From Ruania zhangjianzhongii (GTDB lineage: Bacteria; Actinomycetota; Actinomycetes; Actinomycetales; Beutenbergiaceae): a stretch of DNA of 64,000 nt. A program made the translations under genes and the position numbers. Below the pieces are notes generated by a model, which was not told the DNA's origin, made no database searches, and saw only the letters and a program-made list of their open reading frames with translations. Location of the stretch: assembly GCF_008000995.1 (NCBI RefSeq), contig NZ_CP042828.1, positions 4,144,882 through 4,208,881 of the forward strand, written 5' to 3'. The stretch's first letter is position 1. Each line of letters starts with the position of its first letter. Below, one piece after another: positions 13,980 to 56,479 of this stretch.

Positions 13980-15032
13980 TCAGTTGCTATCGGTGTGTGC
14001 TGCTGGCGCAGCCACGGACTCTCGCGGGCGGATCTGCGGCGCCGCCCCCACCGTTTCGGACTCCTGCACGTCCTCACCGTCGATATAGGCGATGAGGGTG
14101 CGCACCGCGCACTGCCCCAGCTCCCTGAGTGGCAGCGCCACCGTGGTGAGCCGGGGCGTCGTGAACTCCACCGCCCAGCTGTCCTGAACGGCCACCACCG
14201 ACAGGCTCTGCGGCACTGCGCGGCCCGACTGCTGGGCAGCTGCCATGGCGCCGGTGCCGATGAGCACGTTGGCGGTCACGACTCCTGTGGTTCCCGGCGC
14301 TAACCGGAGCAGCTTCTGCATCGAGGCGAAGCCGCTCGGCGCGCTCCAAGGCCCATGGACGGTCTCCAAGGTCCCACCGACCTCGGCAACTGCGGTGGCG
14401 GCACCCTCGAGGCGGGCGGAGTTGGTGTAGGTGCCGGCCGGGCCGCCGATGAAACCGATCTGACGATGCCCTGCCCTGATGAGGCACTCGGCTGCGCTCC
14501 GGCCGGCGCTGCGTTCATCGACCTGGATCCCGGGCGAGAGGCTTCGGCCGGGGGTGTTGAATACGACGGTGGGCAGCGTCCCGGCGATCTCGTCGATGGC
14601 TGACCCCAGATGGGCGTGGCCGTCCTGCATGATGAGGCCGTCGATGCGGGCTCCTCCCAGGTACAGCCGCCTGCTGGAGTCGTGAAAGGCGATCTCGTCG
14701 GCGTCAGTGAGCAGCAGCAGGTAGTCGCGGGAGGTCGCCTCCTCCCGGGCTCCCTCGAGCAGGTCGACGACGATGGTGCTCGCCAGGTCGTGCACGGCCA
14801 AGCCGATGACCTTGGTGCGTTGCTGGCGCAGCGCCCGTGCCGAAGCGGATGGCACATAGTTCAGCCGCTGCGCGGCGGCCTCCACTCGATGCCTGGTCTC
14901 ATCGCGCACGCTGACTGTCGGGTCGTTGTTCAGCACGCGAGATGCCAGCCCGATGGAGACCTGGGCCGCCTTGGCCACGCTTGCCAGCTTCGGCGCCCGT
15001 GCCTTCGGCAAGGTCGAGGATGGTCGCTTCAT
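13980..15032 (-). CDS. LacI-family transcriptional regulator
   Basis: 350 residues. An N-terminal LacI helix-turn-helix (LASVAKAAQVSIGLASRVLNND) with hinge (YVPSASARALRQQRT) is followed by a periplasmic-binding-protein-like sensor domain, residues ~70-340. It lies 3 bp after the phosphodiesterase stop in operon B and is the only LacI protein in the window. The two operator-flanked promoters (11614-11674 and 16439-16499) are therefore its likely targets, with the operon-B site giving autoregulation. The inducer is unknown. Confidence 0.93.
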   Translation of the reverse strand: MKRPSSTLPKARAPKLASVAKAAQVSIGLASRVLNNDPTVSVRDETRHRVEAAAQRLNYVPSASARALRQQRTKVIGLAVHDLASTIVVDLLEGAREEATSRDYLLLLTDADEIAFHDSSRRLYLGGARIDGLIMQDGHAHLGSAIDEIAGTLPTVVFNTPGRSLSPGIQVDERSAGRSAAECLIRAGHRQIGFIGGPAGTYTNSARLEGAATAVAEVGGTLETVHGPWSAPSGFASMQKLLRLAPGTTGVVTANVLIGTGAMAAAQQSGRAVPQSLSVVAVQDSWAVEFTTPRLTTVALPLRELGQCAVRTLIAYIDGEDVQESETVGAAPQIRPRESVAAPAAHTDSN

Positions 15033-26319: not shown

Positions 26320-28242
26320 TCATTCACCTGCGGGCGGAGGTCTGGAAACAAGCGCAGGGTCCCGGCTGCTCTGCTCGCGGTGGAGGTTCTGCTCTCGGCT
26401 CTCGAAGTCACTCAGCCAGTGACCAAGGGATGCGACTTTAGCTACAGTCGCGACGGGAACACCGCGTCCCGCCTGCAGGGCCGAGACGGCGGCCGCGATG
26501 GCATCCTCCGACACCAGCCCGGGGACAGCCATCGAGCTCTGCACGAACGTTGCGATTCGGTCGGCGAAGGTCGCCCTGGTTTGAGCCCACAAGTCGAGGG
26601 GAAATACGTTGGTCCGCTCGTCCCACCATTTCGTGACGGCGTTGGCTGCGTAGCGCTGATCCAGTCGTCGTGCGCCGACGGCGCCGGCCCGTCGACCGAC
26701 GCGCCTCAAACCGGCGATCGGATGGCGAGACGCCAGTTGCGCCAGCTGTGCGCCGTAGCCTCGGTCACTCGACCAGTAGACGTGGTTCAAGGAATCAGGG
26801 CTGTTCCCGTCGTCGCCTCGTCCAATCCCTGCAGTCCTGGTAAACACCTGTCGCTGGACCTTCAGATGCAAGCGGCCGTTCAGCCGCTGCTCGGCTGTGA
26901 GTGCGGCGCAAAAGCGCAGGAACCGCGAGTCGAGGAACGGGGTCTCCGATCTCATCCCGCCTCGACGAACAGCAGTCACGAGCGCATTGCCCCATCGGAC
27001 CTGACGGTTTGCGATTCGCCAGAAGACCGAGAGGTCGCTTCGATCCCAGCCGGACCACGTCGAGAGCGAAGACGCGACGCCATCTGCGAGTACCGACGTC
27101 AGACCGTCGCGCACGTCAGCATCGAGAAACGGTCGAATTGCGGCGATGGCCCCGCCGTAACGGCGGACCGTTGCGTTCACGATCTCGTTCGGCTGACGTA
27201 GCCCCATGGACTTCTCATCACCCCAAAGCGGACCACCGCCGGCTCCGTTCACGAGAACGTCAGCCACCGTCGACAGCGTCTGTCCGAACCACAGTTCGTA
27301 CATCTCTGCGGGGCTGTGGACGCCGTCCAACCTCGCGAGAATCGACGGAGCCGCAGGCATGAGTCGCTCGTCCACGACGGGCAGCTGCAGATGATCGAAA
27401 CCGAGTGTGGCCGCGACCTCAGCAGCCACCCGCGACTCGATCACCTGCTCAGTTCCATAGGCGAACGTGAGCGGCCGTGCACCGACGAGGGCGGAGCCTG
27501 CCGCGACCGCGCGACTATCCAGGCCGCCGCTGACCCCCAAGGCGACGCGTCGCTCAGCATTCCGCTCGAACATCTCCCCCAGCAGGGTCTTCCAGACGTC
27601 CTCGAACGTCTCGATCGCCTCCGCATCACTCATCGCGTCGTTGTTGGGCGTGAAGATCGGGCGGGCCTGCACCCGAGCCCCGCCCAGCGGCGACCACTCC
27701 AGCAGGCCACCGGGCGGCAGCACCCGGACCCCGTTGAGGATCGTCTGATCACCGAGTGGATGGAGGAGCACTAAATACTCGAGTGACGCCCCCTGATCAA
27801 GTCTTGCCGGAACGCCCAAACTCACCAACGACGCGAGATGGGTGGAAACGTAGAGGCCATGCTCATCTGCGAACCAGTAGACCGGGACAGCACCGATGCC
27901 GTCTCCGCTCACCCGTACGCGCCCATCGGGTTCAATGGTGATACGGACGTGCCCAGCCTCCGAACCGACCGACCGGGCTTCCTCAATCGGGCCAGCTCCG
28001 GCCGAGAGCCCGCGCGCGTTGGTAGCCACAACAGCTGAGACCATTCCGGCCGTGCTCCGGAGCTCGCCCTCAGATCCGCCGGGCGGGTCGGTCGCTACGA
28101 GAGCAACAGCCGTGGCACCCAGCGATCCCACCTCACTGCCCGTTGCCCCTGGCACCCGCACAGCCGCATGACGCAGCGTGCTGGACACCGGTCCGGTCTG
28201 TGCTGACCGTGCCTTGGCGATCGCAAGCAGTTCGTATGACAT
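26320..28242 (-). CDS. Asparagine-synthase-like amidotransferase lacking the N-terminal Cys
   Basis: 640 residues. An N-terminal Ntn-hydrolase-like domain is followed by an asparagine-synthase ATP-binding domain with the PP-loop LGVSGGLDSRAVAAG around residue 238 and NGAGGGPLWGD. The second residue is Ser (MSYELLA), not the catalytic Cys2 of glutamine-hydrolysing AsnB, so ammonia release from glutamine is doubtful. Such proteins in polysaccharide loci may amidate a uronic acid or attach an amine, as in WbpS/AsnB-like enzymes. It follows the beta-helix lipoprotein gene by 42 bp. Confidence 0.8.
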   Translation of the reverse strand: MSYELLAIAKARSAQTGPVSSTLRHAAVRVPGATGSEVGSLGATAVALVATDPPGGSEGELRSTAGMVSAVVATNARGLSAGAGPIEEARSVGSEAGHVRITIEPDGRVRVSGDGIGAVPVYWFADEHGLYVSTHLASLVSLGVPARLDQGASLEYLVLLHPLGDQTILNGVRVLPPGGLLEWSPLGGARVQARPIFTPNNDAMSDAEAIETFEDVWKTLLGEMFERNAERRVALGVSGGLDSRAVAAGSALVGARPLTFAYGTEQVIESRVAAEVAATLGFDHLQLPVVDERLMPAAPSILARLDGVHSPAEMYELWFGQTLSTVADVLVNGAGGGPLWGDEKSMGLRQPNEIVNATVRRYGGAIAAIRPFLDADVRDGLTSVLADGVASSLSTWSGWDRSDLSVFWRIANRQVRWGNALVTAVRRGGMRSETPFLDSRFLRFCAALTAEQRLNGRLHLKVQRQVFTRTAGIGRGDDGNSPDSLNHVYWSSDRGYGAQLAQLASRHPIAGLRRVGRRAGAVGARRLDQRYAANAVTKWWDERTNVFPLDLWAQTRATFADRIATFVQSSMAVPGLVSEDAIAAAVSALQAGRGVPVATVAKVASLGHWLSDFESREQNLHREQSSRDPALVSRPPPAGE

Positions 28243-28284
28243 CAATGCTCTCTGACGATTATCGTGCTGATGCAGCGTGACGGT

Positions 28285-38076: not shown

Positions 38077-41000
38077 CTAGGGCACCGGCGTCACGGTGAC
38101 GTTCCCGAACGTGGCGTCCACGTGATGAGCGATCAAGACGACCGACCCGCTGGGGACCGAATCGTCGTCGGTGATCGTGCCCATCCACGACGTCGGCTCC
38201 GCAGTACCCTGCTCCCACATCTTCATCGAGTAGGTAGCACCGCCAGAGGGCAGCGACTCAGCTCGGACACGCATGATGTAGGTATCGCCGGGGCCAAAGT
38301 CGATAGCGTTCCGCCGACCCCGATCGACTGGGGTGTTGTGGTTGCCGAAGAGTTCCCAGCGTGGCCCATTGTCGTGGAACCGGTACCAGGAGTAGGCGCC
38401 GGCCGGGTACCAGCCGTATGGCAGCGGCTCACCCTGGACCCGAGTGTGTCCCTGCCATCGGAGACCGATGCCGATCATGGCCGCACCGGAGAGATATTGC
38501 CCCGCCCCGGGTCCGAAGGCGTGCAGGGTCATCGGCACCGTGACCTCGTAGTCCGTCCACGACGAGTCGCCGACCGCGAGGATCCGGTCATAACCGAGCT
38601 GGACCGTGCTCACCGACCCGTTGCCTGTCTGCCAGAGGCCGTCCACCGATTGCGCCTGCAGCTGCAGCGGTTCGCTGGCGGACCAGTCGGTGGCGTAGGG
38701 CAGAGACAATGCCTCAGCGGCGTACACAGTCACGTTGACCGTTTGGGTCGCGGACGATCCGTCCGAGCCGAGGGCACTGATGGTGACGACATTCTGCCCG
38801 GTGTTCAGGTCGGTGTACGGGATGTCGGCGTTGAAGTCTCCGGGTGCGGCCAACCTCCGGTTGTCGGGCCCGATCGACAGGCCCCGCGCCGATCCACCGT
38901 TGACGCTGTAGGTCAGGGAGGTCACGCTCGCCGAGTTACTGACCGACCCGACGATGTTGACGCGTTCCTGTGGCCGCGCCGGGGACCCGAACGACTGGTC
39001 AGGGCCGTACCAGACATCGATGGCCACGGACGATGCCGGCGTCGTGAACACACCGTCCCCCGTCACCGTGGTGTTGCCGCTGGTGTCGGTGGCGGTGACG
39101 CGGTAGTGATAAGTGGTCTCTGCGGCTAGTCCGGTCAGGGTCGCCGAGTGCGACGTACCCGATCCCGACGACGTCCTCGTACTCCCGTAGGACGTGGTCT
39201 CCCCGAAAGCCACCGCCCCGGTGGTCTCCTCATCCGTGGACCACGAGATCACCGCCGACGACGACGTCGGCGACGCCTCCACAGCGCTGACCACCGGCGC
39301 CGTCACATCCGGCTCAGGCTCCGGGTCAGGATCAGGATCAGGCTCCGGGTCAGGATCAGGATCGGGATCTGGATCCGGGTCCGGTGCAGGACCAGCGCCA
39401 CCATCCTCAGGAACAATCGGGTTCGCCCGATCGAACACAAAATCCACCAACGCCGTGTACTCAGCAGGGTTCGACCCCGCATTCGCCGCGAACGGGCCCA
39501 CCGCACCGACCGTCAACGCCTGCGAGAACGTGCCAATCACCTGCGGCGAACCACCATCAACCGCCACCGTCATCGTCCAGACATTCCCCGCCCGACTCAC
39601 CCCCACCACCACAGAGTCCGAAGGCTGAACCGGCAACACCTGATTGAACCGCATCTTCGACGACCCATTCGTCGTCGCCCCCGCAAACGCCCGCACCACC
39701 CCACCACTGGAGAAAACATCGAACCGCAACCAGTTCGAAGCATCCTGCTCCACCAACACACCCTGATCATCATTCGTCGCCGCAGGAACCGAATCAAACC
39801 CCGCATCCACCGCGAAATCAGAATCCGACACCGCCTGCATCACCCGCAACGACCGATTAGTCCGCCACGCATCATGCGACTCCCCCGCCCCCACCGTCAG
39901 CGACAAATACGCATCCCCCGTACCCTGCGCCACCAACTCCACCGACCCATCCCCCACGTGATCAGTCACCGACCACTCAGACCCCAACACCGACCCAGAA
40001 AAATCATCAGAAGACAACACCGCAGCCGCGGGGCTAGCCACCGAAGTGGTGAAGGTCAGGTCGGTCGAGCTGCCCGCATTGCCGCTGGTGTCGGTGGCGG
40101 TGACGCGGTAGTGATAAGTGGTCTCTGCGGCTAGTCCGGTCAGGGTCGCCGAGTGCGACGTACCCGATCCCGACGACGTCCTCGTACTCCCGTAGGACGT
40201 GGTCTCCCCGAAAGCCACCGCCCCGGTGGTCTCCTCATCCGTGGACCACGAGATCACCGCCGACGACGACGTCGGCGACGCCTCCACAGCGCTGACCACC
40301 GGCGCCGTCACATCCGGCTCAGGCTCCGGGTCAGGATCAGGATCAGGCTCCGGGTCAGGATCAGGATCAGGATCGGGATCTGGATCCGGGTCCGGTGCAG
40401 GACCAGCGCCACCATCCTCAGGAACAATCGGGTTCGCCCGATCGAACACAAAATCCACCAACGCCGTGTACTCAGCAGGGTTCGACCCCGCATTCGCCGC
40501 GAACGGGCCCACCGCACCGACCGTCAACGCCTGCGAGAACGTGCCAATCACCTGCGGCGAACCACCATCAACCGCCACCGTCATCGTCCAGACATTCCCC
40601 GCCCGACTCACCCCCACCACCACAGAGTCCGAAGGCTGAACCGGCAACACCTGATTGAACCGCATCTTCGACGACCCATTCGTCGTCGCCCCCGCAAACG
40701 CCCGCACCACCCCACCACTGGAGAAAACATCGAACCGCAACCAGTTCGAAGCATCCTGCTCCACCAACACACCCTGATCATCATTCGTCGCCGCAGGAAC
40801 CGAATCAAACCCCGCATCCACCGCGAAATCAGAATCCGACACCGCCTGCATCACCCGCAACGACCGATTAGTCCGCCACGCATCATGCGACTCCCCCGCC
40901 CCCACCGTCAGCGACAAATACGCATCCCCCGTACCCTGCCCCACCAACTCCACCGACCCATCCCCCACGTGATCAGTCACCGACCACTCAGACCCCAACA

Positions 41001-41151
41001 CCGACCCAGAAAAATCATCAGAAGACAACACCGCAGCCGCACTGGCCGAGGGCACTACTGCGGCGAGGATCAGGGCACTCGTACCGACGGTCGCGAGCAG
41101 TGCCCGGACCGCACGGACCTGCAACACTGGCGAGGTCATCTGGGGGTTCAT
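38077..41151 (-). CDS. Secreted multidomain protein with duplicated lectin-like and FN3 domains
   Basis: 1024 residues. The signal peptide ends near SASAAA. Order after it: concanavalin-like domain 1 (~40-250), Asp-Pro linker, fibronectin type III 1, domain 2 almost identical to domain 1, linker, fibronectin type III 2, an Ig-like domain (NIVGSVSNSASVTSLTYSVNGG) and a C-terminal lectin-like domain (WYRFHDNGPRWELFGNHN). No anchor is visible. It may bind or organise the polysaccharide outside the cell. The start overlaps the glycosyltransferase stop (ATGA), so a secreted protein is translationally coupled to a biosynthetic enzyme. Confidence 0.82.
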   Translation of the reverse strand: MNPQMTSPVLQVRAVRALLATVGTSALILAAVVPSASAAAVLSSDDFSGSVLGSEWSVTDHVGDGSVELVGQGTGDAYLSLTVGAGESHDAWRTNRSLRVMQAVSDSDFAVDAGFDSVPAATNDDQGVLVEQDASNWLRFDVFSSGGVVRAFAGATTNGSSKMRFNQVLPVQPSDSVVVGVSRAGNVWTMTVAVDGGSPQVIGTFSQALTVGAVGPFAANAGSNPAEYTALVDFVFDRANPIVPEDGGAGPAPDPDPDPDPDPDPDPEPDPDPDPEPEPDVTAPVVSAVEASPTSSSAVISWSTDEETTGAVAFGETTSYGSTRTSSGSGTSHSATLTGLAAETTYHYRVTATDTSGNAGSSTDLTFTTSVASPAAAVLSSDDFSGSVLGSEWSVTDHVGDGSVELVAQGTGDAYLSLTVGAGESHDAWRTNRSLRVMQAVSDSDFAVDAGFDSVPAATNDDQGVLVEQDASNWLRFDVFSSGGVVRAFAGATTNGSSKMRFNQVLPVQPSDSVVVGVSRAGNVWTMTVAVDGGSPQVIGTFSQALTVGAVGPFAANAGSNPAEYTALVDFVFDRANPIVPEDGGAGPAPDPDPDPDPDPDPEPDPDPDPEPEPDVTAPVVSAVEASPTSSSAVISWSTDEETTGAVAFGETTSYGSTRTSSGSGTSHSATLTGLAAETTYHYRVTATDTSGNTTVTGDGVFTTPASSVAIDVWYGPDQSFGSPARPQERVNIVGSVSNSASVTSLTYSVNGGSARGLSIGPDNRRLAAPGDFNADIPYTDLNTGQNVVTISALGSDGSSATQTVNVTVYAAEALSLPYATDWSASEPLQLQAQSVDGLWQTGNGSVSTVQLGYDRILAVGDSSWTDYEVTVPMTLHAFGPGAGQYLSGAAMIGIGLRWQGHTRVQGEPLPYGWYPAGAYSWYRFHDNGPRWELFGNHNTPVDRGRRNAIDFGPGDTYIMRVRAESLPSGGATYSMKMWEQGTAEPTSWMGTITDDDSVPSGSVVLIAHHVDATFGNVTVTPVP
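39074..40029 (-). repeat. Internal duplication, downstream copy
   Basis: About 955 bp nearly identical to 40079-41040. The offset is 1005 bp before the Asp-Pro linker and 1011 bp after it because this copy has one fewer 6-bp GATCAG-type unit. By eye the rest differs at a single base, giving VELVAQG against VELVGQG. Encodes one concanavalin-like domain, linker and fibronectin type III domain. Confidence 0.9.
40079..41040 (-). repeat. Internal duplication, upstream (N-terminal) copy
   Basis: Partner of 39074-40029, encoding the first concanavalin-like/linker/FN3 module directly after the signal peptide. The near identity at silent positions implies recent duplication or ongoing gene conversion. 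Confidence 0.9.
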
Positions 41152-44431: not shown

Positions 44432-45820
44432 ATGACGACACGCACCGGCACGCACCACCCGCGAACACGACGCTGGACCATCGGTATCTGCGCCGCTCTT
44501 GCTCTGGCCCTGGCTGTCGGCCTAGGGCTGTGGTTGCGATCCGACGGTTTCCGCATCGCCAACGAGATCGGCGACCTGACCGGGGTGGAGTCCGCCGGGC
44601 TCGTGCCCACGGAGGGGGCCGCATCCGAAGAGATCCTCCGGGTGGAGATCGCTCCGTCGACGGGAAGGGCGGAGATCGAGACGATCCTTGAGACGACCGA
44701 GGAGGTGATCGACGACGAAGTGGTGCCCGCTGCCAGAGTCTCTCTGGGGACTGCAGAGGTGAAGGTGGGCGCTCGCTACAGGGCCGGGATCCGCGATGCC
44801 GCGCAAGTCCTCGTCGCGCTCAGCACGCTGGCGGACGGCCGGGCCATACTCGACGAGCGGAACATCGTCTTCGTCGAAGCGACCGAACCCCCCTTGGCGA
44901 ACATTCTCGATTGGCTGACGCTGATCGAGGAGGAGAGTCTCCGCGTCGAGGACGTGACGGTCGAAGGTGAGGACGGCTGGAACGCGATCTCCATCTACCG
45001 GCCGCAGACGAACCATCGAGAGGCCCTGGAGGCTCTGCGCGAGTGGGACCCGGATGTCACCTCCATCACTCTCGAGGAAACCTCTCTGACAATCCGGACG
45101 ACCATCCCGTTCCTCGATCTCGGGCCGCTCGCCCAGGATGCGCAGTCGGCAGCACGCATCCTGAACCCTGAGTCACCGCGCGTCAGGCTCGAGACTTCCG
45201 ATCAGCGCAGACTCTCCGTCGGTGACGAAGACCCCGGCACCGCCTTGGAGATGGCGGGCAAAATCGAGGACGACGGCTGGGCAGTGCACAGCCTCAACAG
45301 CGGTCTCACATCCATCGACGTGGCGCACGCGGATCGAACCGTGGACCCGTCGCAGCTGCCCGACCTCGCAGAGGCTCTGCGCTCCGCTGGTCTGCCACAG
45401 GAGGCGACGACCCGGGTCGACGAAGGTGCTCTGTTCTGGGGAACGCGCTCCGACCTCGAGGACCTGGCGCCGTCGATCGCGCAGGCGCACGCGGACGGGT
45501 ACCTCGTGCGCTGGACGCGTGATGACCGAGGCCCGGGTCCTGATGCGCGCGTCTGGGTGGAGCTGCCCACCGGCCACTCCTTGTCCGAGGGCTCCGATCT
45601 GGCGGGCGCCATCGACGTGGCACGTTCCATCCCATGGCCCGGCACCGGCCTGATCACGCTCCAGACCACACCCGAGTCCGGGTCGTACAAGGACGAGCGG
45701 GAGGTGACGCTCAACTCCACTGCCACCGGAACCGCGGAGGACGTCCAGGTCGACCCGGACTACCTCCCCGGGGAGGGGCAGGTGCAGGATGCGTGGGACG
45801 CCACCGCGACAGAGAACTAA
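44432..45820 (+). CDS. Membrane-anchored extracellular protein of unknown function
   Basis: 462 residues. One N-terminal membrane span (~15-36) leaves the acidic remainder outside the cell. No catalytic motif or known domain was recognised. The C-terminal third has repeated alpha/beta character (DLEDLAPSIAQAHADGYLVRW). Its stop overlaps the convergent glycosyltransferase stop (45817-45820). Confidence 0.7.
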   Translation: MTTRTGTHHPRTRRWTIGICAALALALAVGLGLWLRSDGFRIANEIGDLTGVESAGLVPTEGAASEEILRVEIAPSTGRAEIETILETTEEVIDDEVVPAARVSLGTAEVKVGARYRAGIRDAAQVLVALSTLADGRAILDERNIVFVEATEPPLANILDWLTLIEEESLRVEDVTVEGEDGWNAISIYRPQTNHREALEALREWDPDVTSITLEETSLTIRTTIPFLDLGPLAQDAQSAARILNPESPRVRLETSDQRRLSVGDEDPGTALEMAGKIEDDGWAVHSLNSGLTSIDVAHADRTVDPSQLPDLAEALRSAGLPQEATTRVDEGALFWGTRSDLEDLAPSIAQAHADGYLVRWTRDDRGPGPDARVWVELPTGHSLSEGSDLAGAIDVARSIPWPGTGLITLQTTPESGSYKDEREVTLNSTATGTAEDVQVDPDYLPGEGQVQDAWDATATEN

Positions 45821-47019
45821 GACCTCCGGCGCTCCACCAGCTGGTCGAACACCCCGACGTAAGCTCTCGCCTGGAGCGACCACGCCAGCTCGGTCTCGAT
45901 CCGAGCCCGGCCGGCTCGCCCCATCTCTGCCCGGCGTTCGGGATCGTCCAGCAGCTCCGCGATCGCAGCCGCGGTCTCGGCCGGGTCCGCACCGGAGACG
46001 TAGACCGCGGCGTCCGCAGCACACCGCCGGGTCTCCTGCAGATCGGTGGCCACCACGGCCACCTCGTGCGCCATGTACTCCAGCGTCTTGTTCATCGTCG
46101 ACCGGTGGTTGAACTCGTTCTGCGGGTCCGGGGTGACGCCGAGGTCCGCCGTCGAGAGCCACCGGCCGAGCTCCTCATGGTCCACCCGACCGGTGAACGT
46201 CACCCACTCATCGAGCCCCCGCCGGGTGCAGTCCGCCATCAGCCCCTCGAGGCTGTCACCGAAGCCGAGCAGCACAAACCGGGTATCCCGGCGGTCGAGC
46301 TGGTGGACGTACACGTCGACCGCGGCGAGCAGCGCGTCGACGCCGTCCTGCGGGCCCATGATGCCGACGTAGCAGACCAGGTGGCTGAGCCCGCCGCGTA
46401 GCTCCGGGTGCTCGGCTGCCCGCCGCATCCGCTCCGGATCCGGAGTACTCATCACGACGGCGGTACGCGCCTGGGGTAGGCGGCCTCGCTGCACGGCGAG
46501 GTCGCGGTAGGAGGGATTGGGCGAGACCACCCGATCGGCAACCCGATAGGTCTGCCGTTCGAGCCAGAGCAGCGCCCGGTGGAGGAAGCCGCGCTTGCCG
46601 AAACGGGCCTCGTAGACCTCCGGGCACAGATCATGCTGGTCGAAGACGAACCTGCGACCCCGCAGCTTCCACCACGCCCCCAGCAACCAGTAGGTATCGG
46701 GCGGATTGCACGCCTGCAGGACATCGAAGCGCCGCTCCCGGTTCACCCGGACGCTCAGGCGCGCCGCGTGCAGCCAGCAGACGACGAACTCCCGTGCATA
46801 GGACAGCAGCCCTCGCGCACCTTCCGGCGCCGGGTAGGAGAACACCACAGCACCGTCGATCTCGTGCCGATCGGGCTCGGCCGAGTCCTCCTTCGGACAG
46901 ATCACGCTCACGTCGTACCCGGCGTCCAGCAGCGCCCGGCACTCGTTGCGCACCCGCCGGTCCAGGCGCAACGGCAAGTTCTGAATAATGATGAGGGCAT
47001 GGCCTCGAACGAGGGCCAT
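45817..47019 (-). CDS. Glycosyltransferase family 4 (GT-B fold)
   Basis: 400 residues. The N-terminal Rossmann domain (IIIQNLPLRLDRRVRNECRALLDAGYDVSVIC) and the C-terminal donor domain (VCYVGIMGPQDGVDALL, FTGRVDHEELGRWLSTADLGVTPDPQNEFNHRSTMNKTLEYMA) with the E-x7-E-type site show a GT-B enzyme. Single gene, leftward, just left of the lasso cluster. It adds a sugar to the lipid-linked unit; donor unknown. Confidence 0.88.
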   Translation of the reverse strand: MALVRGHALIIIQNLPLRLDRRVRNECRALLDAGYDVSVICPKEDSAEPDRHEIDGAVVFSYPAPEGARGLLSYAREFVVCWLHAARLSVRVNRERRFDVLQACNPPDTYWLLGAWWKLRGRRFVFDQHDLCPEVYEARFGKRGFLHRALLWLERQTYRVADRVVSPNPSYRDLAVQRGRLPQARTAVVMSTPDPERMRRAAEHPELRGGLSHLVCYVGIMGPQDGVDALLAAVDVYVHQLDRRDTRFVLLGFGDSLEGLMADCTRRGLDEWVTFTGRVDHEELGRWLSTADLGVTPDPQNEFNHRSTMNKTLEYMAHEVAVVATDLQETRRCAADAAVYVSGADPAETAAAIAELLDDPERRAEMGRAGRARIETELAWSLQARAYVGVFDQLVERRRS

Positions 47020-47192: not shown

Positions 47193-47453
47193 ATGAAGTT
47201 GCGGGCGAACGAAGTCAGCGTGCGTGAGATCGACGGCGAGATGGTGTTGCTGGACCTGCGCACCTCCAAGTACCTGAGCGCCAACCGGGTGGGCACGATC
47301 CTGCTTCAGCTGCTCGCCGAGGAGCGGTCCGCCGACGAGCTGGCCGATGCGCTGGTGGCGGAGTTCGACGTCCCGCACGAGACGGCCCTGGCCGATGTCA
47401 CCATGTTCGTGGACGAGCTGCGCACCCGCGGCCTGCTCGAGCCCGCCGGCTGA
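47193..47453 (+). CDS. Lasso peptide RRE protein (PqqD-like, B1)
   Basis: 86 residues. The winged-helix PqqD/RRE pattern VREIDGEMVLLDLRTSKYLSANRVGTILLQLL is clear. Such proteins bind the leader's YxxPxLxxxG motif, which is present in the precursor at 50064-50204, and hand it to the B2 protease. The ATG at 47193 has GGAGG 6 bases upstream; an earlier in-frame GTG (47169) lacks this. First of three rightward genes. Confidence 0.92.
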   Translation: MKLRANEVSVREIDGEMVLLDLRTSKYLSANRVGTILLQLLAEERSADELADALVAEFDVPHETALADVTMFVDELRTRGLLEPAG

Positions 47454-47471
47454 TCGAGCGGTGCCGAGCCG

Positions 47472-47909
47472 ATGAGAAGGGTGCCGGTCCGCGAGGTCCC
47501 CGCGGTGATCGCCGCGCTGGCCCTGGCCTGTGCGGTGGAGGTCGGGCTGCGCACCCTCTCCCTGCCGCGCACGGCACGACTGGTCGGCGCACCCCTGCGC
47601 AGCACCTCCTCCCCCACCGCTCCGCAAGTGCGCGGCGCCCGGCTTGGCCGCAGGGGACGGCGTCAGGCACGTGCGGTACAGCGGGTGATGCGGCACTGGC
47701 CGTTCGGGGACACCTGCCTGCGGCACGCGCTGGTTGCCGGCCACCGGCTACGCCGGTTCGATCCCGAGCTGGTGGTCGGTGTGGCCAAGGTGGACGGCGA
47801 GATCCGGGCGCACGCCTGGCTGGAGTTCGACACCGGTCTGTACGACCCGTTGCGCGCCGCCCAGGCCTACCTCCCGCTCGGCTCGCCCCGGCCCGTGGAG
47901 GAGGAGTGA
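47472..47909 (+). CDS. Lasso peptide leader protease (B2, transglutaminase-like)
   Basis: 145 residues. Catalytic Cys in GDTCLRHALVAGHRL and His in IRAHAWLEF with a following Asp match the lasso B2 cysteine proteases, which cut the leader after the residue following a conserved Thr. The Arg-rich middle replaces a membrane segment. It lies 18 bp after the RRE gene and overlaps the kinase gene by 4 bases. Confidence 0.92.
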   Translation: MRRVPVREVPAVIAALALACAVEVGLRTLSLPRTARLVGAPLRSTSSPTAPQVRGARLGRRGRRQARAVQRVMRHWPFGDTCLRHALVAGHRLRRFDPELVVGVAKVDGEIRAHAWLEFDTGLYDPLRAAQAYLPLGSPRPVEEE

Positions 47910-48949
47910 GGACCGCACTGTACGGCCTGGTGGTGGACAGCGAGATCCCGCTGCACCACGACCGTGCGGCCACCGGGCCGGCCGACGTCACGATCCGGTA
48001 CGGCGCACCACGGCAGGCCACGCACGAGCCGCCGGACGGGCGCCGGATGCTGCACCTGGAGACCGACCGCTCCCTGTTCACCGCCGCGGAGACCGAGACC
48101 GGCTACCTGCTCCGGTTCTACCAGACCTGCGACTTCGTGATCGATGCGGACCTGGGCGCTGTGACGGTGCATGCGGTCCCGGGTGCGAAGGAGGACACCC
48201 TCGGTGTGCTCATCTCCGGCACGCTGCTCTCGTTCCTGCTCTCGCTGCACGGCGTGGCCGTGCTGCACGCCAGCGCCGTGCAGGTCGGGGAGTCCGCCCT
48301 GGCCTTCGTCGGCAGCTCCGGGATGGGGAAGTCCACGATGGCCACGCTGGCCTGCGCCGGTGGAGCGCAGCTGATCACCGACGACGTTCTCCGCCTGGAT
48401 CTGGCCGCAGACCGGCCACGGTGCCACCTGGGCGGGACAGCCTTGCGGCTGCGCAAAGCGGCCACCGACCTCTCCACCCTCTTCGGTGCCGCGCCGGCCC
48501 ACCGAGTCACCGGCGACGGCCGGGACGCGCTCACCATGACCCCGGCGGTGCAGGAGCTGGTGCCGCTGGCGGCGATGGTGATCCCGGCGCCGCAGCACGA
48601 CTCGGTGCTCACCCGGCCCGAGCTGGTCCGGCTGGAGCCCAAGCAGGCACTGCTGGCACTGCTGCAGTTCCCGCGGATCGTCGGCTGGGAGGACGCGGGA
48701 GTGCTGGACCGTCAGCTGCAGGAGCTCGGCGTCATCGTGGCGCAGACCCCGGTGTACGTGGCCCGGCTCCCGTGGGGGCCGCCGTTCTCCCCATCGCTGG
48801 CTGCTGACCTGTTCGAGGACCTTCGGCTGCGACCCGCGGCAGCTGCGGCAGGCCGTGCTGGTGCAACCACGCGATCTGCGCAAGGAAGTAGCTCACCGGG
48901 TGCGGTCGCGGACTCAGCCACACCTCCTGCAGGCGCGCATCGTCGATGA
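47906..48949 (+). CDS. Lasso peptide kinase (HPr kinase homolog)
   Basis: 347 residues. HASAV and the P-loop GSSGMGKST (~136-144) followed by LITDDVLRLD define the HPr-kinase-like fold of lasso tailoring kinases (PadeK/ThcoK type), which phosphorylate the C-terminal Ser of the precursor. The precursor here ends in Ser. The GTG start overlaps the B2 stop (GTGA). The last ~70 codons lie antisense over the cyclase 3' end (48732-48949); the recognisable domain ends near residue 305, so the tail may be dispensable. Confidence 0.88.
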   Translation: MRTALYGLVVDSEIPLHHDRAATGPADVTIRYGAPRQATHEPPDGRRMLHLETDRSLFTAAETETGYLLRFYQTCDFVIDADLGAVTVHAVPGAKEDTLGVLISGTLLSFLLSLHGVAVLHASAVQVGESALAFVGSSGMGKSTMATLACAGGAQLITDDVLRLDLAADRPRCHLGGTALRLRKAATDLSTLFGAAPAHRVTGDGRDALTMTPAVQELVPLAAMVIPAPQHDSVLTRPELVRLEPKQALLALLQFPRIVGWEDAGVLDRQLQELGVIVAQTPVYVARLPWGPPFSPSLAADLFEDLRLRPAAAAAGRAGATTRSAQGSSSPGAVADSATPPAGAHRR

Positions 48950-49994
48950 GATCCGGATCGAAGGCGCCGCCGGTGTAGCTGCGCGCGAACTCGCGTTCGG
49001 GCTCTGCCCAGCGGGAGGCGTTGAACGCAGCCTTGCTCCGCCGGGCGAGCACGGCGTCCGGGAGCAGATCCGCGCCCAGCCGGCGGAACAGGTGCGTGCG
49101 GCCCGGGAAGCCCCACCCGCCGCCTTCGGCCGCGAGCGCGGCGACCACCGCAGTCTCGGCGATCGGGTGCCGCATGGTCAGGCCATACTCGGCGGCACTG
49201 ACCACGGCGTTGTCCAGACCCAGCCGGGTGGTGCGCTGGTGGTGGATCGCCCAGGTGGCCACATCCCAGCGGAGCGGGCCGCGCAGCGCCGCTTCGTCGG
49301 CGGCGAGGATCTCCCGCGCTGCCGGCCGCAGCCAGGGCAGCAGGTCCGGGTCGGCATAGGTGCGCCGAGCCTGCGCACGCACCACCGCCGCAGGCAGCAG
49401 CGCTGCTCCCGCCGCGCGGAGCAGGGCGAGGCTCGGGAGCCGGCGGCGCCGGCGGAGCAGAAACAGCGGCGTGACCCGCCGCCCCTCGAGGAAGGCGTCT
49501 CCGCCCTCGCCGGTGAGCACGGTGCCGCTGCCGAGCTGGGCGAAGAACAACGGTTGGGTGTGCACCGCTTCCGGCCACACCAGCCCGCGCCGGCGCAGAT
49601 GCGTGGTGGCCAGCTCGCCCAGGGTGGAGCGTTCGTCGGTGACCGAGAGCACCAGGCGTTCGGTGAGGCCGAGATGCTCGAGCACCAGGTCCTGCCAGTC
49701 GGTCTCGTCGGCCTGCTCGTCCCCCGGGTAGACGGCGGTGACCGGGACCGGATCGTCCGCGCCCAGCTGGCGGGCGGCGTGGGTGGCCAGGGCGAGGATG
49801 AGCGAGGAGTCCCGGCCGCCGGAGAACAGCACATAACAGGGGCCACTGCTGCTGACAGCGTCGGTCACCGCCCGCTCCAGGGCGGCCCGGACGGTGCGGG
49901 CGTCCGCTGCGGGATCGTCATTGACCACCGCAACGGAGCCCAAGGGTGCAGCGACGCCGACCTCGGTGTCGGTCAGCCGCTGGTAGATCAGCAC
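48732..49994 (-). CDS. Lasso peptide cyclase (asparagine-synthetase-like, C)
   Basis: 420 residues. PP-loop FSGGRDSSLILALA around residue 55 and LTGEGGDAFLEGRR, with the C-terminal RHPIAETAVV and RSKAAFNASRW blocks, match lasso macrolactam synthetases. It adenylates the ring Asp side chain and closes it on the core N-terminus. The GTG at 49994 with AGGA 7 bases upstream is used; the alternative at 50051 would place the start in the hairpin 50018-50052. Convergent with, and overlapping, the kinase gene. Confidence 0.9.
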   Translation of the reverse strand: MLIYQRLTDTEVGVAAPLGSVAVVNDDPAADARTVRAALERAVTDAVSSSGPCYVLFSGGRDSSLILALATHAARQLGADDPVPVTAVYPGDEQADETDWQDLVLEHLGLTERLVLSVTDERSTLGELATTHLRRRGLVWPEAVHTQPLFFAQLGSGTVLTGEGGDAFLEGRRVTPLFLLRRRRRLPSLALLRAAGAALLPAAVVRAQARRTYADPDLLPWLRPAAREILAADEAALRGPLRWDVATWAIHHQRTTRLGLDNAVVSAAEYGLTMRHPIAETAVVAALAAEGGGWGFPGRTHLFRRLGADLLPDAVLARRSKAAFNASRWAEPEREFARSYTGGAFDPDLIDDARLQEVWLSPRPHPVSYFLAQIAWLHQHGLPQLPRVAAEGPRTGQQPAMGRTAAPTGAGPRTPGSAPR

Positions 49995-50017
49995 GCCGGG
50001 ATCCTTCCGATCAGAGG

Positions 50018-50052
50018 TGTGCCGCGTGCCGGCTGGGCCGGCACGCGGCACA
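50018..50052 (-). terminator. Perfect 16-bp hairpin between lasso precursor and cyclase genes
   Basis: Arms TGTGCCGCGTGCCGGC / GCCGGCACGCGGCACA with a 3-base loop. It begins 11 bases after the precursor stop and ends 23 bases before the cyclase start. This position is typical of the partial terminator that keeps precursor mRNA in excess over enzyme mRNA. Confidence 0.85.
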
Positions 50053-50063
50053 GTGGGGTGTGC

Positions 50064-50204
50064 TCAGCTGAACTCACCCGGAAGTGGGATGGTGACCTTC
50101 CACAGCCGGATCTCGTCCGACCAGTCCTGCAGGTTGGCACCGCCAAGGGTCATCTCGCGCACGCTCCCGACTTCGGTGAGCATAGGAGCCTCGTAGATAC
50201 TCAT
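50064..50204 (-). CDS. Lasso peptide precursor (A), 20-residue leader and 26-residue core
   Basis: 46 residues. The leader contains YEAPMLTEVG, an exact YxxPxLxxxG recognition motif (residues 4-13), and Thr19 at the -2 position. Cleavage after Leu20 gives a 26-residue core starting GGANLQDW and ending PLPGEFS. Gly1 is the expected ring amine. The only acid in the usual window is Asp7 (positions 8 and 9 are Trp and Ser), so a 7-residue ring is predicted. The C-terminal Ser suits the lasso kinase in the cluster. GGAAGGGAGGGA lies directly upstream of the ATG. Confidence 0.92.
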   Translation of the reverse strand: MSIYEAPMLTEVGSVREMTLGGANLQDWSDEIRLWKVTIPLPGEFS

Positions 50205-50278
50205 GTGTCCCTCCCTTCCTCTCTTCCAGCGGTGTGGCACCGCGCCGCCCCCTGGACGGGTGCCCAGGCGATCTGACC

Positions 50279-50334
50279 AGACTAGGAGGAGGGGCCCTCC
50301 GGCGGCACTGAAGCGCCGGGTGATCTGAGGGTGA
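50279..50334 (-). promoter_or_regulatory. Lasso precursor promoter with 11-bp TCACC direct repeats
   Basis: Minus strand TCACCCTCAGATCACCC has TCACC units 11 bp apart (top-strand GGTGA at 50330-50334 and 50319-50323). A third, degenerate unit TTCAGTG follows in phase, then a weak -35 (TGCCGC, 50302-50307), 17 bp and -10 TAGTCT at 50279-50284. Two more GGTGAG units at 50353 and 50362 lie upstream. The leader to the ATG is about 70 bases. Confidence 0.62.
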
Positions 50335-50389
50335 GGCCCGGCAGCGATCGAGGGTGAGGAGGGTGAGCCGCTACGCCTCACCCCCACGG

Positions 50390-51577
50390 TCAGGACGTGG
50401 CTTCCACCCGGTCCAGGTACAGATCGAGCGCACCGTCTCCGGCCGGGGACCGGCCGGTGCGAGCCTGCGCGGGCCGCTCGCTCAGACGCCGGGCCACGCT
50501 CTGCGCGGACGCCAGCGTGGTCCGCACTGCCCCGGGCCGTACCGCCCGTGCCACCAGTCGGGCCACCCCAGGCTCGGTGCGGGCGGCGGCGACCGGAGCC
50601 GCGCGGTCGACCGCGGCGGTGAGCGCTCGGAACGCCGCCGTGCTGCCGAGCAACCGGTCCAGACCCTCCGGGAGCTCACCGCCGAGGCTGCGCTGGGCCC
50701 GGTGCAGGACGAGCGCCACGTGCGGGGCCGCCCGCCAGTCGGCCGCCCGCTCCCCCACCAGCGCCCAGTCGGTGATCCGCGCGGCCATCCGCTGCGCATC
50801 CACCAGGTAGAGCAGCTTGTTCGCCCCGGTGAGCGCGGCGTGCAGGCAGACGTGCAGCAGTCCGTCCACCGGATCGAGGGTCCACGCCGAGGCGAACCCG
50901 AGCGAGACCTGTTCCCGCCGGTGCAGCAGGTCCGCAGTCGGTACCGTCAACCGCCGGCGCCGGTCCGCCATATTGATCATCGACCAGTGCAGGTCCATCA
51001 GCACCCCGGTAGGGCTGCGCCAGTGCATCTCGCCGGGCAGCTGCGGGTTGCGGAGCATGTCCTCGAAGTCGGCGATCGTCCAGCCCGCGCCGAGCAGTCG
51101 GACGCTCACCTCGCGCAGGTCCTCCGGGCGGACCAGCAGGTCCAGATCCTGATAGCTGCGCAGACCGGGCACCGGATGGGCGAGCTCGGACAGCACGGGA
51201 CCTTTGAACACCACCCAGCCCACGCCGTCGAGCAGGTCCCCGAGGTGACCGAGGAGCGTGGTGGCGTGCAGGTGCAGCGCCCGGGCCTGGTCCCGGTCCC
51301 GCTGGACCGCCTGGGCCAGGTCCGGCTCGCCATCCCGGAGCAGCACGTGCGCCAGCGGCGCGAGGCGGTGATAGCGCGCGGCGCCGGCGAACGCCGCCGG
51401 GTCCGCACGCAGCGCAGGGGTGATCGACGGGCGCTCACCACGGGCGATCGCCACCAGGCTGCGCGACAGCGCCTGTTGCCGCGCAGCGTCCTGCGCGGCA
51501 GGTCTCCGGCTCAGAGTTCGTCCTCCCGCTCGGTCGGCGTCAGCACGCCGCTGGACGTCAGGATAGGGGACGTGCAC
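50390..51577 (-). CDS. Nucleotidyltransferase-family protein associated with lasso/RiPP clusters
   Basis: 395 residues. The central VVFKGPVLSELAHPVPGLRSYQDLDLLVRPEDL has the G-x(n)-DxD nucleotidyltransferase signature of the NTP_transf_5 family. These proteins recur beside lasso kinases and have been linked with further modification of the phosphorylated C-terminus. It precedes the precursor gene by 185 bp in the same direction and follows rmlCD by 80 bp, so it could be transcribed with the rhamnose genes. The GTG start is uncertain. Confidence 0.8.
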   Translation of the reverse strand: MHVPYPDVQRRADADRAGGRTLSRRPAAQDAARQQALSRSLVAIARGERPSITPALRADPAAFAGAARYHRLAPLAHVLLRDGEPDLAQAVQRDRDQARALHLHATTLLGHLGDLLDGVGWVVFKGPVLSELAHPVPGLRSYQDLDLLVRPEDLREVSVRLLGAGWTIADFEDMLRNPQLPGEMHWRSPTGVLMDLHWSMINMADRRRRLTVPTADLLHRREQVSLGFASAWTLDPVDGLLHVCLHAALTGANKLLYLVDAQRMAARITDWALVGERAADWRAAPHVALVLHRAQRSLGGELPEGLDRLLGSTAAFRALTAAVDRAAPVAAARTEPGVARLVARAVRPGAVRTTLASAQSVARRLSERPAQARTGRSPAGDGALDLYLDRVEATS

Positions 51578-51657: not shown

Positions 51658-54934
<3,277 letters not shown>

Positions 54935-54979: not shown

Positions 54980-56479
54980 TCAGTACGCGCCACGGCCACC
55001 GAACACCGCCCGGAAGGTCCGGCCGAGGATGCCCAGGTCCATCAGCAGCGACCGGTTGTCCACATAGTGCAGATCGAGCCGCACCGTCTGTGCCCAGTCC
55101 AGGTCCGAGCGGCCACTGACCTGCCACAGACCGGTCAGGCCCGGCTTCACCCGGAGCCGCTGCCAGGCGTCCTGGTCGTAATCGGCGACCTCCTCGCGCA
55201 ACGGCGGCCGAGGACCGACCAGCGACATGTCCCCGCGAACCACGTTCCACAGTTGCGGCAGCTCGTCCACGGAGAACCGGCGCAGCATCCGCCCCACCGG
55301 GGTGATCCGCGGATCGTTGCGCATCTTGAACATCACCTCGTTGCCGTCGCTGTGGGCCAACAGCTCGGCCCGGCGGCGGTCCGCGTCCACGTACATCGTG
55401 CGCAGCTTGAACATGGTGAAGGTCGTGCCGTCCCGGCCCGCCCGCTGCTGGGTGTAGAACGGCGAGCCCGCAGATCCGATCCGGACCAGGAGCGCCGCGA
55501 CGGCCAGCACCGGCAGTGCACCCGCCAGCAGCACACCGCCGAGCACCCGGTCCAGGGCCACCTTGATCGAGTGCTGGGTGCGGCTCGGCCCGATCGCCAC
55601 GGTGAGCAGCGGGGTTCCGGAGACCGGGCGGACCGCGACCCGGGCCGCCGCCACCTCTTCGATGTTCGGGGCGATCAGCAGCTCCACCCCGCGGCTCTCC
55701 ACCTCCCAGCAGAACCGGCGTAGCTCGGCCGCCGCCATGCAGGAGGCCGCCACCACCACCACACCCACGCCGTGCTCGGCCACGACGTCCGCCGCCTCGG
55801 TGACATCCCCGAGGACGGGCACTCCGGCCCAGCCCGGGGCAGCCCCGTTGACACACAGACCCACCACGTCCAGCCCCTGGTGCGGATCCTGGCGCAGCTG
55901 CATGGTCAGGCTGCGCAGATGCTCGGGGTCGCCGACGAGCAGGGTGCGGCGCTGCCACTCCCCGTGCCGGCGGCGCCGGCGGACCAGCGCGCGCTCCAGT
56001 GTGCGGGCGAGCAGCACAGCGGTGAGGCTGCCCGCGATCGCCCCGATGACGTAGATCGGCTCGATCGCCACCTCGGCGACGTACAACACCGTGATCAGCA
56101 GAGTGGCCCACACCCAGCCGGCCCGGACGATCACCTTGTACTCGTGGCTGCCGGACCCGGTGCGGCGCAGGTCATAGCCGCGGGTGGCGCCGATCAGCAG
56201 GGTGAAGGCCATCCCCGCGGCGAGGCCCCCTGCCAGAGCGAGGTCGAGGCCCAGGGCGGATGCCAGGACAACTGCGACGGCCGCCGTCACCAGCAGGAGA
56301 TCGCCAGCGGCGATCCCCCACTGGTACGCGCGGCTCCATGTACCTTCTGGCCGGATTCTCGAGCGAGCGCCGGATCTCGTCGCGGCCAGTGGGGTGGGAA
56401 CAGTCGGATCGGGGAGAACAGTTCCACGGAGGGGGCGGTGCGCACGGACGTGAGTGAGGTCCAGCGCCACCGCCCTCAC
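54980..56479 (-). CDS. Polyprenyl-phosphate sugar-1-phosphate transferase (WcaJ/CpsE type)
   Basis: 499 residues. Four to five N-terminal spans, a CoA-binding-like middle domain, a further span and a C-terminal bacterial sugar-transferase domain (FKLRTMYVDADRRRAEL, FSVDELPQLWNVVRGDMSLVGPRPPL, KPGLTGLWQVSGRS). It starts repeat-unit synthesis by loading the first sugar-phosphate on undecaprenyl phosphate. The start is either the GTG at 56479 or that at 56470; the second has better spacing from AAGGAAGG. Repeats upstream at 56588-56702. Confidence 0.92.
   Translation of the reverse strand: MRAVALDLTHVRAHRPLRGTVLPDPTVPTPLAATRSGARSRIRPEGTWSRAYQWGIAAGDLLLVTAAVAVVLASALGLDLALAGGLAAGMAFTLLIGATRGYDLRRTGSGSHEYKVIVRAGWVWATLLITVLYVAEVAIEPIYVIGAIAGSLTAVLLARTLERALVRRRRRHGEWQRRTLLVGDPEHLRSLTMQLRQDPHQGLDVVGLCVNGAAPGWAGVPVLGDVTEAADVVAEHGVGVVVVAASCMAAAELRRFCWEVESRGVELLIAPNIEEVAAARVAVRPVSGTPLLTVAIGPSRTQHSIKVALDRVLGGVLLAGALPVLAVAALLVRIGSAGSPFYTQQRAGRDGTTFTMFKLRTMYVDADRRRAELLAHSDGNEVMFKMRNDPRITPVGRMLRRFSVDELPQLWNVVRGDMSLVGPRPPLREEVADYDQDAWQRLRVKPGLTGLWQVSGRSDLDWAQTVRLDLHYVDNRSLLMDLGILGRTFRAVFGGRGAY

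Follow-up and report, generated by a model that had tools for sequence, protein, structure and literature searches.

A predicted C-terminally phosphorylated lasso peptide locus with a short cyclase in Ruania zhangjianzhongii and related actinobacteria

Peptide kinases of lasso-type clusters are described, in the portions of the literature available to us, as acting either on the C-terminal serine of the precursor (the paeninodin type) or on Ser3 (BsfK and LppK). According to the same partial sources, the paeninodin-like and LPP clusters of Bacillota have been reported in polysaccharide loci, and reviews, as far as their accessible text goes, give the lasso ring a range of 7-9 residues. Here we analyze a cluster at positions 47193-51577 of a 64,000-nucleotide stretch of the Ruania zhangjianzhongii genome (contig NZ_CP042828.1; "the window" hereafter means this whole stretch). 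We propose, with a probability of about 0.72, that the product of the locus is a lasso peptide phosphorylated at its C-terminus, a reading for which gene content, motifs and conservation of a terminal serine are directly observed. The locus is one of an actinobacterial family that is widespread yet has received little description, and it shows two structural departures, a single-domain cyclase and an aspartate at core position 10.

The cluster consists of two opposed gene groups, with B1/RRE, B2 and the kinase on the plus strand and the nucleotidyltransferase, precursor and cyclase on the minus strand.

47193-47453, plus strand: B1, an RRE or PqqD-like leader-binding protein (PqqD PF05402, E 2.7e-18)
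47472-47909, plus strand: B2 leader peptidase (NF033537, 64.6 bits, cut-off 33)
47906-48949, plus strand: K, an HPr-kinase-like peptide kinase (Hpr_kinase_C 18.4 bits, P-loop, invariant catalytic residues)
48732-49994, minus strand: C, a short, single-domain macrolactam cyclase of 420 amino acids (PF00733, E 3.2e-21)
50064-50204, minus strand: A, the lasso precursor (open reading frame with a match to the lasso leader model NF033521)
50390-51577, minus strand: N, an NTP_transf_5 nucleotidyltransferase (PF14907, E 5.8e-33)

A preliminary description of this DNA had named a precursor with a YxxPxLxxxG leader and Thr at -2, an RRE protein, a B2 protease, a cyclase, a kinase with intact P-loop and an accompanying nucleotidyltransferase. 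Every one of these parts is found, and we regard it as confirmed that a lasso-type cluster containing all of them is real. Chance assembly is excluded because the kinase, cyclase and B2 families recur together in related loci (39/39, 39/39 and 37/39, the loci having been picked by their kinase) and because a nearly identical core is found in two further genomes (G001 and G009). B1 reaches 62.8 bits with the lasso-specific model NF033530, under its cut-off of 70. B2 is the only gene of its kind in the genome, and its Cys82 and His114 both belong to the positions conserved in 93% or more of 28 aligned B2 rows. The kinase and cyclase genes overlap by 218 bp tail to tail on opposite strands. At related loci of the L074 type (loci carry our L numbers; L074 lies on an Occultella glacieicola contig), precursor, cyclase, B2 and kinase mostly run in the same direction; in the window type (47906-49994) the precursor-cyclase pair is inverted, which gives rise to this overlap. 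Neither Rfam nor tRNA scanning returned a match in the window.

The precursor reads MSIYEAPMLTEVGSVREMTLGGANLQDWSDEIRLWKVTIPLPGEFS and divides into the leader MSIYEAPMLTEVGSVREMTL and a predicted core of 26 residues, GGANLQDWSDEIRLWKVTIPLPGEFS. It starts with an ATG at 50204, preceded by the Shine-Dalgarno-like GGAAGGGAGGG, and ends at 50064. The leader motif YxxPxLxxxG is exact (as YEAP in its first half), Thr stands at -2, and the lasso leader model NF033521 scores 32 bits, over a cut-off of 19. The final residue is Ser, as previously described, and the core's hydroxyl residues are Ser9, Thr18 and this terminal Ser26; residue 3 is Ala.

The case for the C-terminal serine as the kinase target is better supported by comparison than it could be from one sequence. 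A total of 62 loci carry a kinase scoring above 100 bits; setting aside nine genome repeats and six loci in which no short cyclase was found (L105, L111, L112, L114, L152 and L160, five of them with precursors ending in Val, Ile, Ser, Ser and Val and the sixth yielding no precursor) leaves 47 family loci. Their 53 distinct precursors exclude seven pattern matches, six of them apparently antisense or unrelated frames; the seventh is probably a second precursor of L080, again with Ser at its end. Among the 53, 48 end in Ser, four in Arg (always Ser-Arg) and one in Gly. Thirteen different residues occur at the penultimate position, and 5.6% of the remaining core residues are Ser. In lasso loci that have no such kinase only two of 18 precursors end in Ser, a count that includes near-copies (L060/L062, L127/L128) and a locus, L157, with a weak 75-residue kinase-like match; the difference has a Fisher p of 8e-10, uncorrected for kinship. 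The terminal Ser is the sole near-constant hydroxyl residue across the family.

A phosphate elsewhere in the core, on Ser9 or Thr18, is conceivable, as BsfK and LppK modify Ser3 in the published accounts seen in part, and kinases of other loci pair with precursors that have a last residue other than Ser. Position 3 itself drops out as the phosphosite, the window core having Ala3, and it is Ser or Thr in only 7/53 cores. Neither Ser9 nor Thr18 is conserved within the window's subclade, where Ser9 is replaced by Lys, Gln, Asn or Arg, set against a last residue that is Ser in 48/53. We therefore judge an internal site to be quite unlikely and keep the C-terminal Ser as the predicted target. The preliminary description had named this residue; its choice of site is strengthened by the family comparison and by Ala3, which excludes Ser3, and phosphorylation itself stays a prediction.

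Two groups of loci show other precursor ends. In L064, L065 and L066, all of one genus, precursors end in PPVGSR, with Arg after the Ser, and the kinase residues are intact (L065 was aligned); trimming of the Arg or an altered kinase would explain these ends. In L132, L133 and L135, kinase-like loci in whose stretches the cyclase motif was not found, lasso-type precursors end in NPQHRP or NPQNRP and are possibly LPP-like or equipped with internal Ser targets. Six loci from Jiangella, Phytoactinopolyspora and one metagenome-assembled genome (L078, L079, L081, L082, L083 and L086) encode two different tandem precursors, both ending in Ser.

The kinase retains an intact P-loop (GSSGMGKST) and the His-Lys-Asp-Asp set of HPr-kinase-like enzymes; H121, G136, G139, G141, K142, S143, D159 and D160 are invariant in a 27-row alignment. 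These residues and their spacing are identical to those printed for BsfK (H148 to D187) in the part of PMC10368454 available. A predicted structure (mean predicted local distance difference test, pLDDT, 90.6) adopts the fold shared by phosphoenolpyruvate (PEP) carboxykinases and HPr kinases. Its best structural matches are PEP carboxykinases (E 1.6e-8), with HPr kinase 1ko7 at E 3.6e-5, and the low TM-scores are as would be expected for this fold class. HPr kinase/phosphorylase proper was considered and rejected: its model TIGR00679 gives 13.8 of 240 bits. The weak HPrK-like similarity might suggest that the gene is a housekeeping HPr kinase/phosphorylase or some other enzyme that merely lies nearby. 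We give this notion almost no credence, given the TIGR00679 score and the loci of many genera in which B2 and the short cyclase occur together with a kinase of this family.

A departure from ordinary lasso clusters lies in the cyclase, whose likely start is a GTG at 49994 behind GGAAGGA. The protein consists of the synthetase domain alone, the N-terminal part of about 200 residues found in ordinary lasso cyclases being absent. Across the 47 family loci the cyclases are 383-473 amino acids long and carry the motif SGGxDS at residue 55-141 (starts were picked mechanically), versus 530-712 amino acids with the motif at 161-321 in 12 cyclases of kinase-less lasso loci. As the family loci were selected for a short cyclase, 47/47 describes the set and is not a test; among distinct kinase loci above 100 bits with a cyclase found, 47 have the short form, and in four the motif lies far inside a longer reading frame. 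When a profile built from 31 short cyclases is aligned to solved structures, its match begins only at residue 204 of asparagine synthetase B, 207 of beta-lactam synthetase and 219 of a hydroxyamidotransferase; the AlphaFold2 model, with a mean pLDDT of 91.0, shows the window cyclase as the synthetase domain plus a short N-terminal stretch. The single-domain assignment rests on length, this alignment offset and the model. It does not use the missing Pfam GATase match, which is uninformative on a lost domain because only one of eight long cyclases scanned reaches the GATase_7 cut-off. No further conserved family stood out among the top families listed for 39 clustered loci as a supplier of the missing part; besides kinase, cyclase, B2 and nucleotidyltransferase, the recognisable conserved families on that list are mostly sugar and polysaccharide genes. 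If these cyclases work, they would be the smallest natural lasso-type cyclases met here and would reveal what the two-domain enzyme can do without.

Such an enzyme could also yield an unthreaded branched or cyclic phosphopeptide. The whole family has the single-domain form, and LPP clusters, as described in the portions of the literature available, are kinase-RRE systems for ribosomally synthesized and post-translationally modified peptides (RiPPs) that lack a lasso fold. Against this, B1, B2, the leader and Thr(-2) are lasso-like and one acidic column of the core is conserved. We consider the unthreaded product improbable and continue to favor a lasso peptide.

Several observations weigh against a phosphorylated lasso product. 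In a sister group, four precursors have Ser-Arg at their end, one family precursor closes with Gly, and at other kinase-bearing loci outside the family only 15/24 precursors end in Ser, some of the rest ending in Pro, Val, Ile or Asn, so that the presence of a kinase alone does not set the site. The kinase is far below the cut-off of every named family (Hpr_kinase_C 18.4 bits versus 33.3), and the lasso-cyclase NCBIfam models fall far below theirs on the window cyclase (NF033561 33.7/300, NF033535 21.9/525).

The precursors also bear on the size of the ring. Counted from Thr(-2), an Asp occupies core position 9 in 39/53 cores, and the aligned Asp lies at position 10 in ten: those of the window, L015, L016, L073, L087b, L102, L064, L065a, L065b and L066. 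The first six of these have an additional Asp or Glu at position 7 (Asp7 in the window); the last four have no acid at 7-9. Four further cores (L087a, L104, L106 and L109) fall outside both patterns, and the L087 precursor at 14339, in a kinase locus with its own short cyclase, has no acid in core positions 1-12 and ends in Ser. In a MAFFT alignment of 20 chosen precursors, which omits the four cores lacking Asp at 9 or 10, Asp10 and Asp9 share one column, the sole invariant column of the core. On a cyclase tree of 62 rows, the nine Asp10-type rows come under one fork with support of 93/96 (slightly below the tool's mark of 95); a labelled-group test gave 99/99, with 38 unlabelled rows disregarded.

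We hypothesize that the acceptor is most likely Asp10, since the Asp at 10 is conserved, four relatives have no acid at 7-9 and Gly1 is constant. This would give a Gly1-Asp10 ring of 10 residues and, if true, would widen the published range. Asp7 would permit a ring of known size, and a seven-residue Gly1-Asp7 ring agrees with the range in the reviews and with an Asp or Glu at position 7 in 6/6 precursors of the window's closer subfamily. Yet the four sister precursors without an acid at 7-9 have cyclases on the window's own branch, position 7 swaps Asp for Glu, and it is Asp10 that aligns with the Asp9 of 39/53 cores; the smaller ring is possible and deserves to be kept in view, although we do not favor it. 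The published range would likewise be kept if the leader were cut one residue later, leaving Thr at -3 and a nine-residue Gly2-Asp10 ring, and residue 2 of the window core is indeed Gly. However, residue 1 is Gly in 10/10 Asp10-type precursors, whereas at residue 2 Gly is found three times, Lys or Arg four times and Leu or Trp three times, kinds that are poor first residues compared with those named as observed in the accessible part of PMC12670498. A shifted cut thus appears doubtful, and Gly1-Asp10 remains our preferred ring.

Between precursor and cyclase lies a further feature.

50004-50055 (approximate), minus strand: 16-pair G+C-rich hairpin without a T run (fold of 49995-50066: -40.6 kcal/mol, z -4.88)

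An alternative cyclase start, a GTG at 50051, was rejected, as it sits inside this hairpin. In a thinned set, a helix of at least 12 pairs occurs in 34/40 family cases versus 7/17 kinase-less lasso precursors, and a folding z of -3 or below in 30/40 versus 5/17. Perfect stems of at least 10 pairs did not separate the groups (17/55 family versus 7/30 other lasso loci; shuffles reach this length in 0.2%). A scan for promoters and terminators gave a single hit, a terminator-like site within the cyclase gene (shuffle mean 0.5), and no promoter. The hairpin is best read as a candidate attenuator or mRNA stabiliser that may set precursor over cyclase expression.

The preliminary description had expected an actinobacterial phospho-lasso cluster to be unusual, an expectation that our genome searches overturn. 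A kinase search of 149 related genomes matched 13, including the window's own, ten of them strongly (E <1e-70). Among 396 genomes of the window's order, 24 have a B2 over the cut-off, 16 with the window's kinase type adjacent and eight without. A scan of named genomes found 52 loci, and of the 42 strongest (E up to 1e-29) 41 carry actinobacterial titles and one is titled Acidobacteria. Georgenia, Occultella, Pseudactinotalea, Jiangella, Phytoactinopolyspora, Nocardioides, Isoptericola, Cellulosimicrobium, Tessaracoccus and Terrabacter are all represented among the strongest, and the window genome falls by relatedness in Occultella's family (Ruaniaceae in the cyclase-tree labels). The type is therefore common in this part of the actinobacteria. 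The available text of a paper on Isoptericola sp. AK164 mentions a lasso cluster and has no word of a lasso kinase. No study of an actinobacterial lasso kinase, no 10-residue ring and no single-domain lasso cyclase was found in the accessible parts of PMC10368454, PMC8498205, PMC9266682, PMC13381572, PMC7533575, PMC12670498, PMC13352647, PMC13192320, PMC10425560, PMC12187853 and PMC11212047; most subscription literature lies outside this search, so its support for novelty is weak. The kinases of this large actinobacterial set, whose partner precursors diverge except for the terminal Ser, offer material for learning how such enzymes select a C-terminal Ser.

On one side of the cluster is a family-4 glycosyltransferase and on the other are rhamnose-type sugar-nucleotide genes, which places it inside a polysaccharide locus.

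45817-47019, minus strand: family-4 glycosyltransferase, flanking (Pfam)
51658-53145, minus strand: fused RmlC/RmlD-like sugar-nucleotide gene, flanking (Pfam)
53067-54062, minus strand: RmlB-like sugar-nucleotide gene, flanking (Pfam)
54980-56479, minus strand: undecaprenyl-phosphate sugar transferase (Bac_transf), flanking (PF02397, E 2.7e-61)

The same stretch contains Wzy-like, Wzx-like, pyruvyl-transferase, family-2 glycosyltransferase and C-methyltransferase genes. Sugar genes homologous to those of the window occur at 22/47 family loci, 1/12 kinase-less lasso loci and 4/13 other kinase loci (p 0.02, family versus kinase-less), and NTP_transf_5 at 35/47, 0/12 and 9/13. An ATP-binding cassette (ABC) ATPase was detected by motif scan at 3/47 family, 8/12 kinase-less and 4/13 other kinase loci (p 3e-5, family versus kinase-less); the same scan found none in the 24 kb round the window cluster. 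D144, D146 and other residues of the nucleotidyltransferase are conserved in 93% or more of 23 rows, and a sequence search for a solved relative found none (best E 0.85). Genomes of the genus that lack the cluster offered no clean empty site, the flanking glycosyltransferase being missing there too.

Elsewhere in the polysaccharide locus, a 1024-amino-acid gene at 38077-41151 contains two near-identical stretches about 1 kb apart (99% and 97% over 300-nt samples), a recent internal duplication. A second asparagine-synthetase-like gene, full-length at 641 amino acids, lies apart from the lasso cluster at 26323-28245 on the minus strand.

For the pathway we borrow phosphorylation, the order of steps, sugar addition and threading from characterised relatives. 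B1 would bind the YxxPxL leader, B2 would cut two residues behind Thr(-2), and the short cyclase would activate an Asp and join it to Gly1. The NTP_transf_5 protein would then probably extend the phosphate with a sugar or nucleotide, in the way reported for PsmN. The calculated monoisotopic masses are 2927.482 for the linear core, 2909.471 for the cyclised one, 2989.438 and 3069.404 with one and two phosphates added to the latter, and 3151.490 with a phosphate and a hexose. More speculatively, we suggest a single-domain-cyclase phospho-lasso family, with a subclade possessing the first 10-residue ring, in which the Ser-phosphate may be sugar-extended and the peptide secreted with, or anchored to, the polysaccharide of the locus rather than ABC-exported; taken together these proposals are rather unlikely to all hold. 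The purpose of the phosphate is made testable by three features together: the position in a polysaccharide locus, the absence of a nearby ABC exporter and the presence of a nucleotidyltransferase.

How the locus relates to known systems depends on which part is compared. Beta-lactam synthetase and asparagine synthetase B share the synthetase domain with the window cyclase, which lacks their first ~200 residues. For the RiPP systems that follow, our comparison draws on published accounts available in part. LPP clusters of Bacillota combine an RRE, an HprK-like kinase and an NTP (nucleoside triphosphate) transferase in polysaccharide loci, as here; unlike the window, they have a signal-peptidase-like protease and no cyclase, and Ser3 is phosphorylated. 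The Bsf cluster of Bradymonas (PMC10368454) resembles it in discrete B1 and B2, in kinase motif spacing and in a nucleotidyltransferase, but BsfK acts on Ser3 of a precursor ending in Asp, whereas the window core has Ala3 and ends in Ser. The pseudomycoidin cluster (psm) pairs a kinase with an annotated nucleotidyltransferase in the same way, there leading to a hexose on the phosphate; host phylum, cyclase length and export differ, and PsmN is likened to the window protein by its annotation. Paeninodin and the enzymes ThcoK and SyanK share with the window an HPr-kinase-like His-Lys-Asp-Asp enzyme, a C-terminal Ser and a split B1/B2. Paeninodin-like precursors are said to have a nearly invariant Trp (WxxP) where the window leader has YxxP, and the window further differs in its single-domain cyclase, its lack of an adjacent ABC exporter and its actinobacterial host. 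The earlier assignment to the paeninodin type accordingly holds for the chemistry, which fits, and not for membership, from which the YxxP leader, missing ABC exporter and single-domain cyclase set this locus apart.

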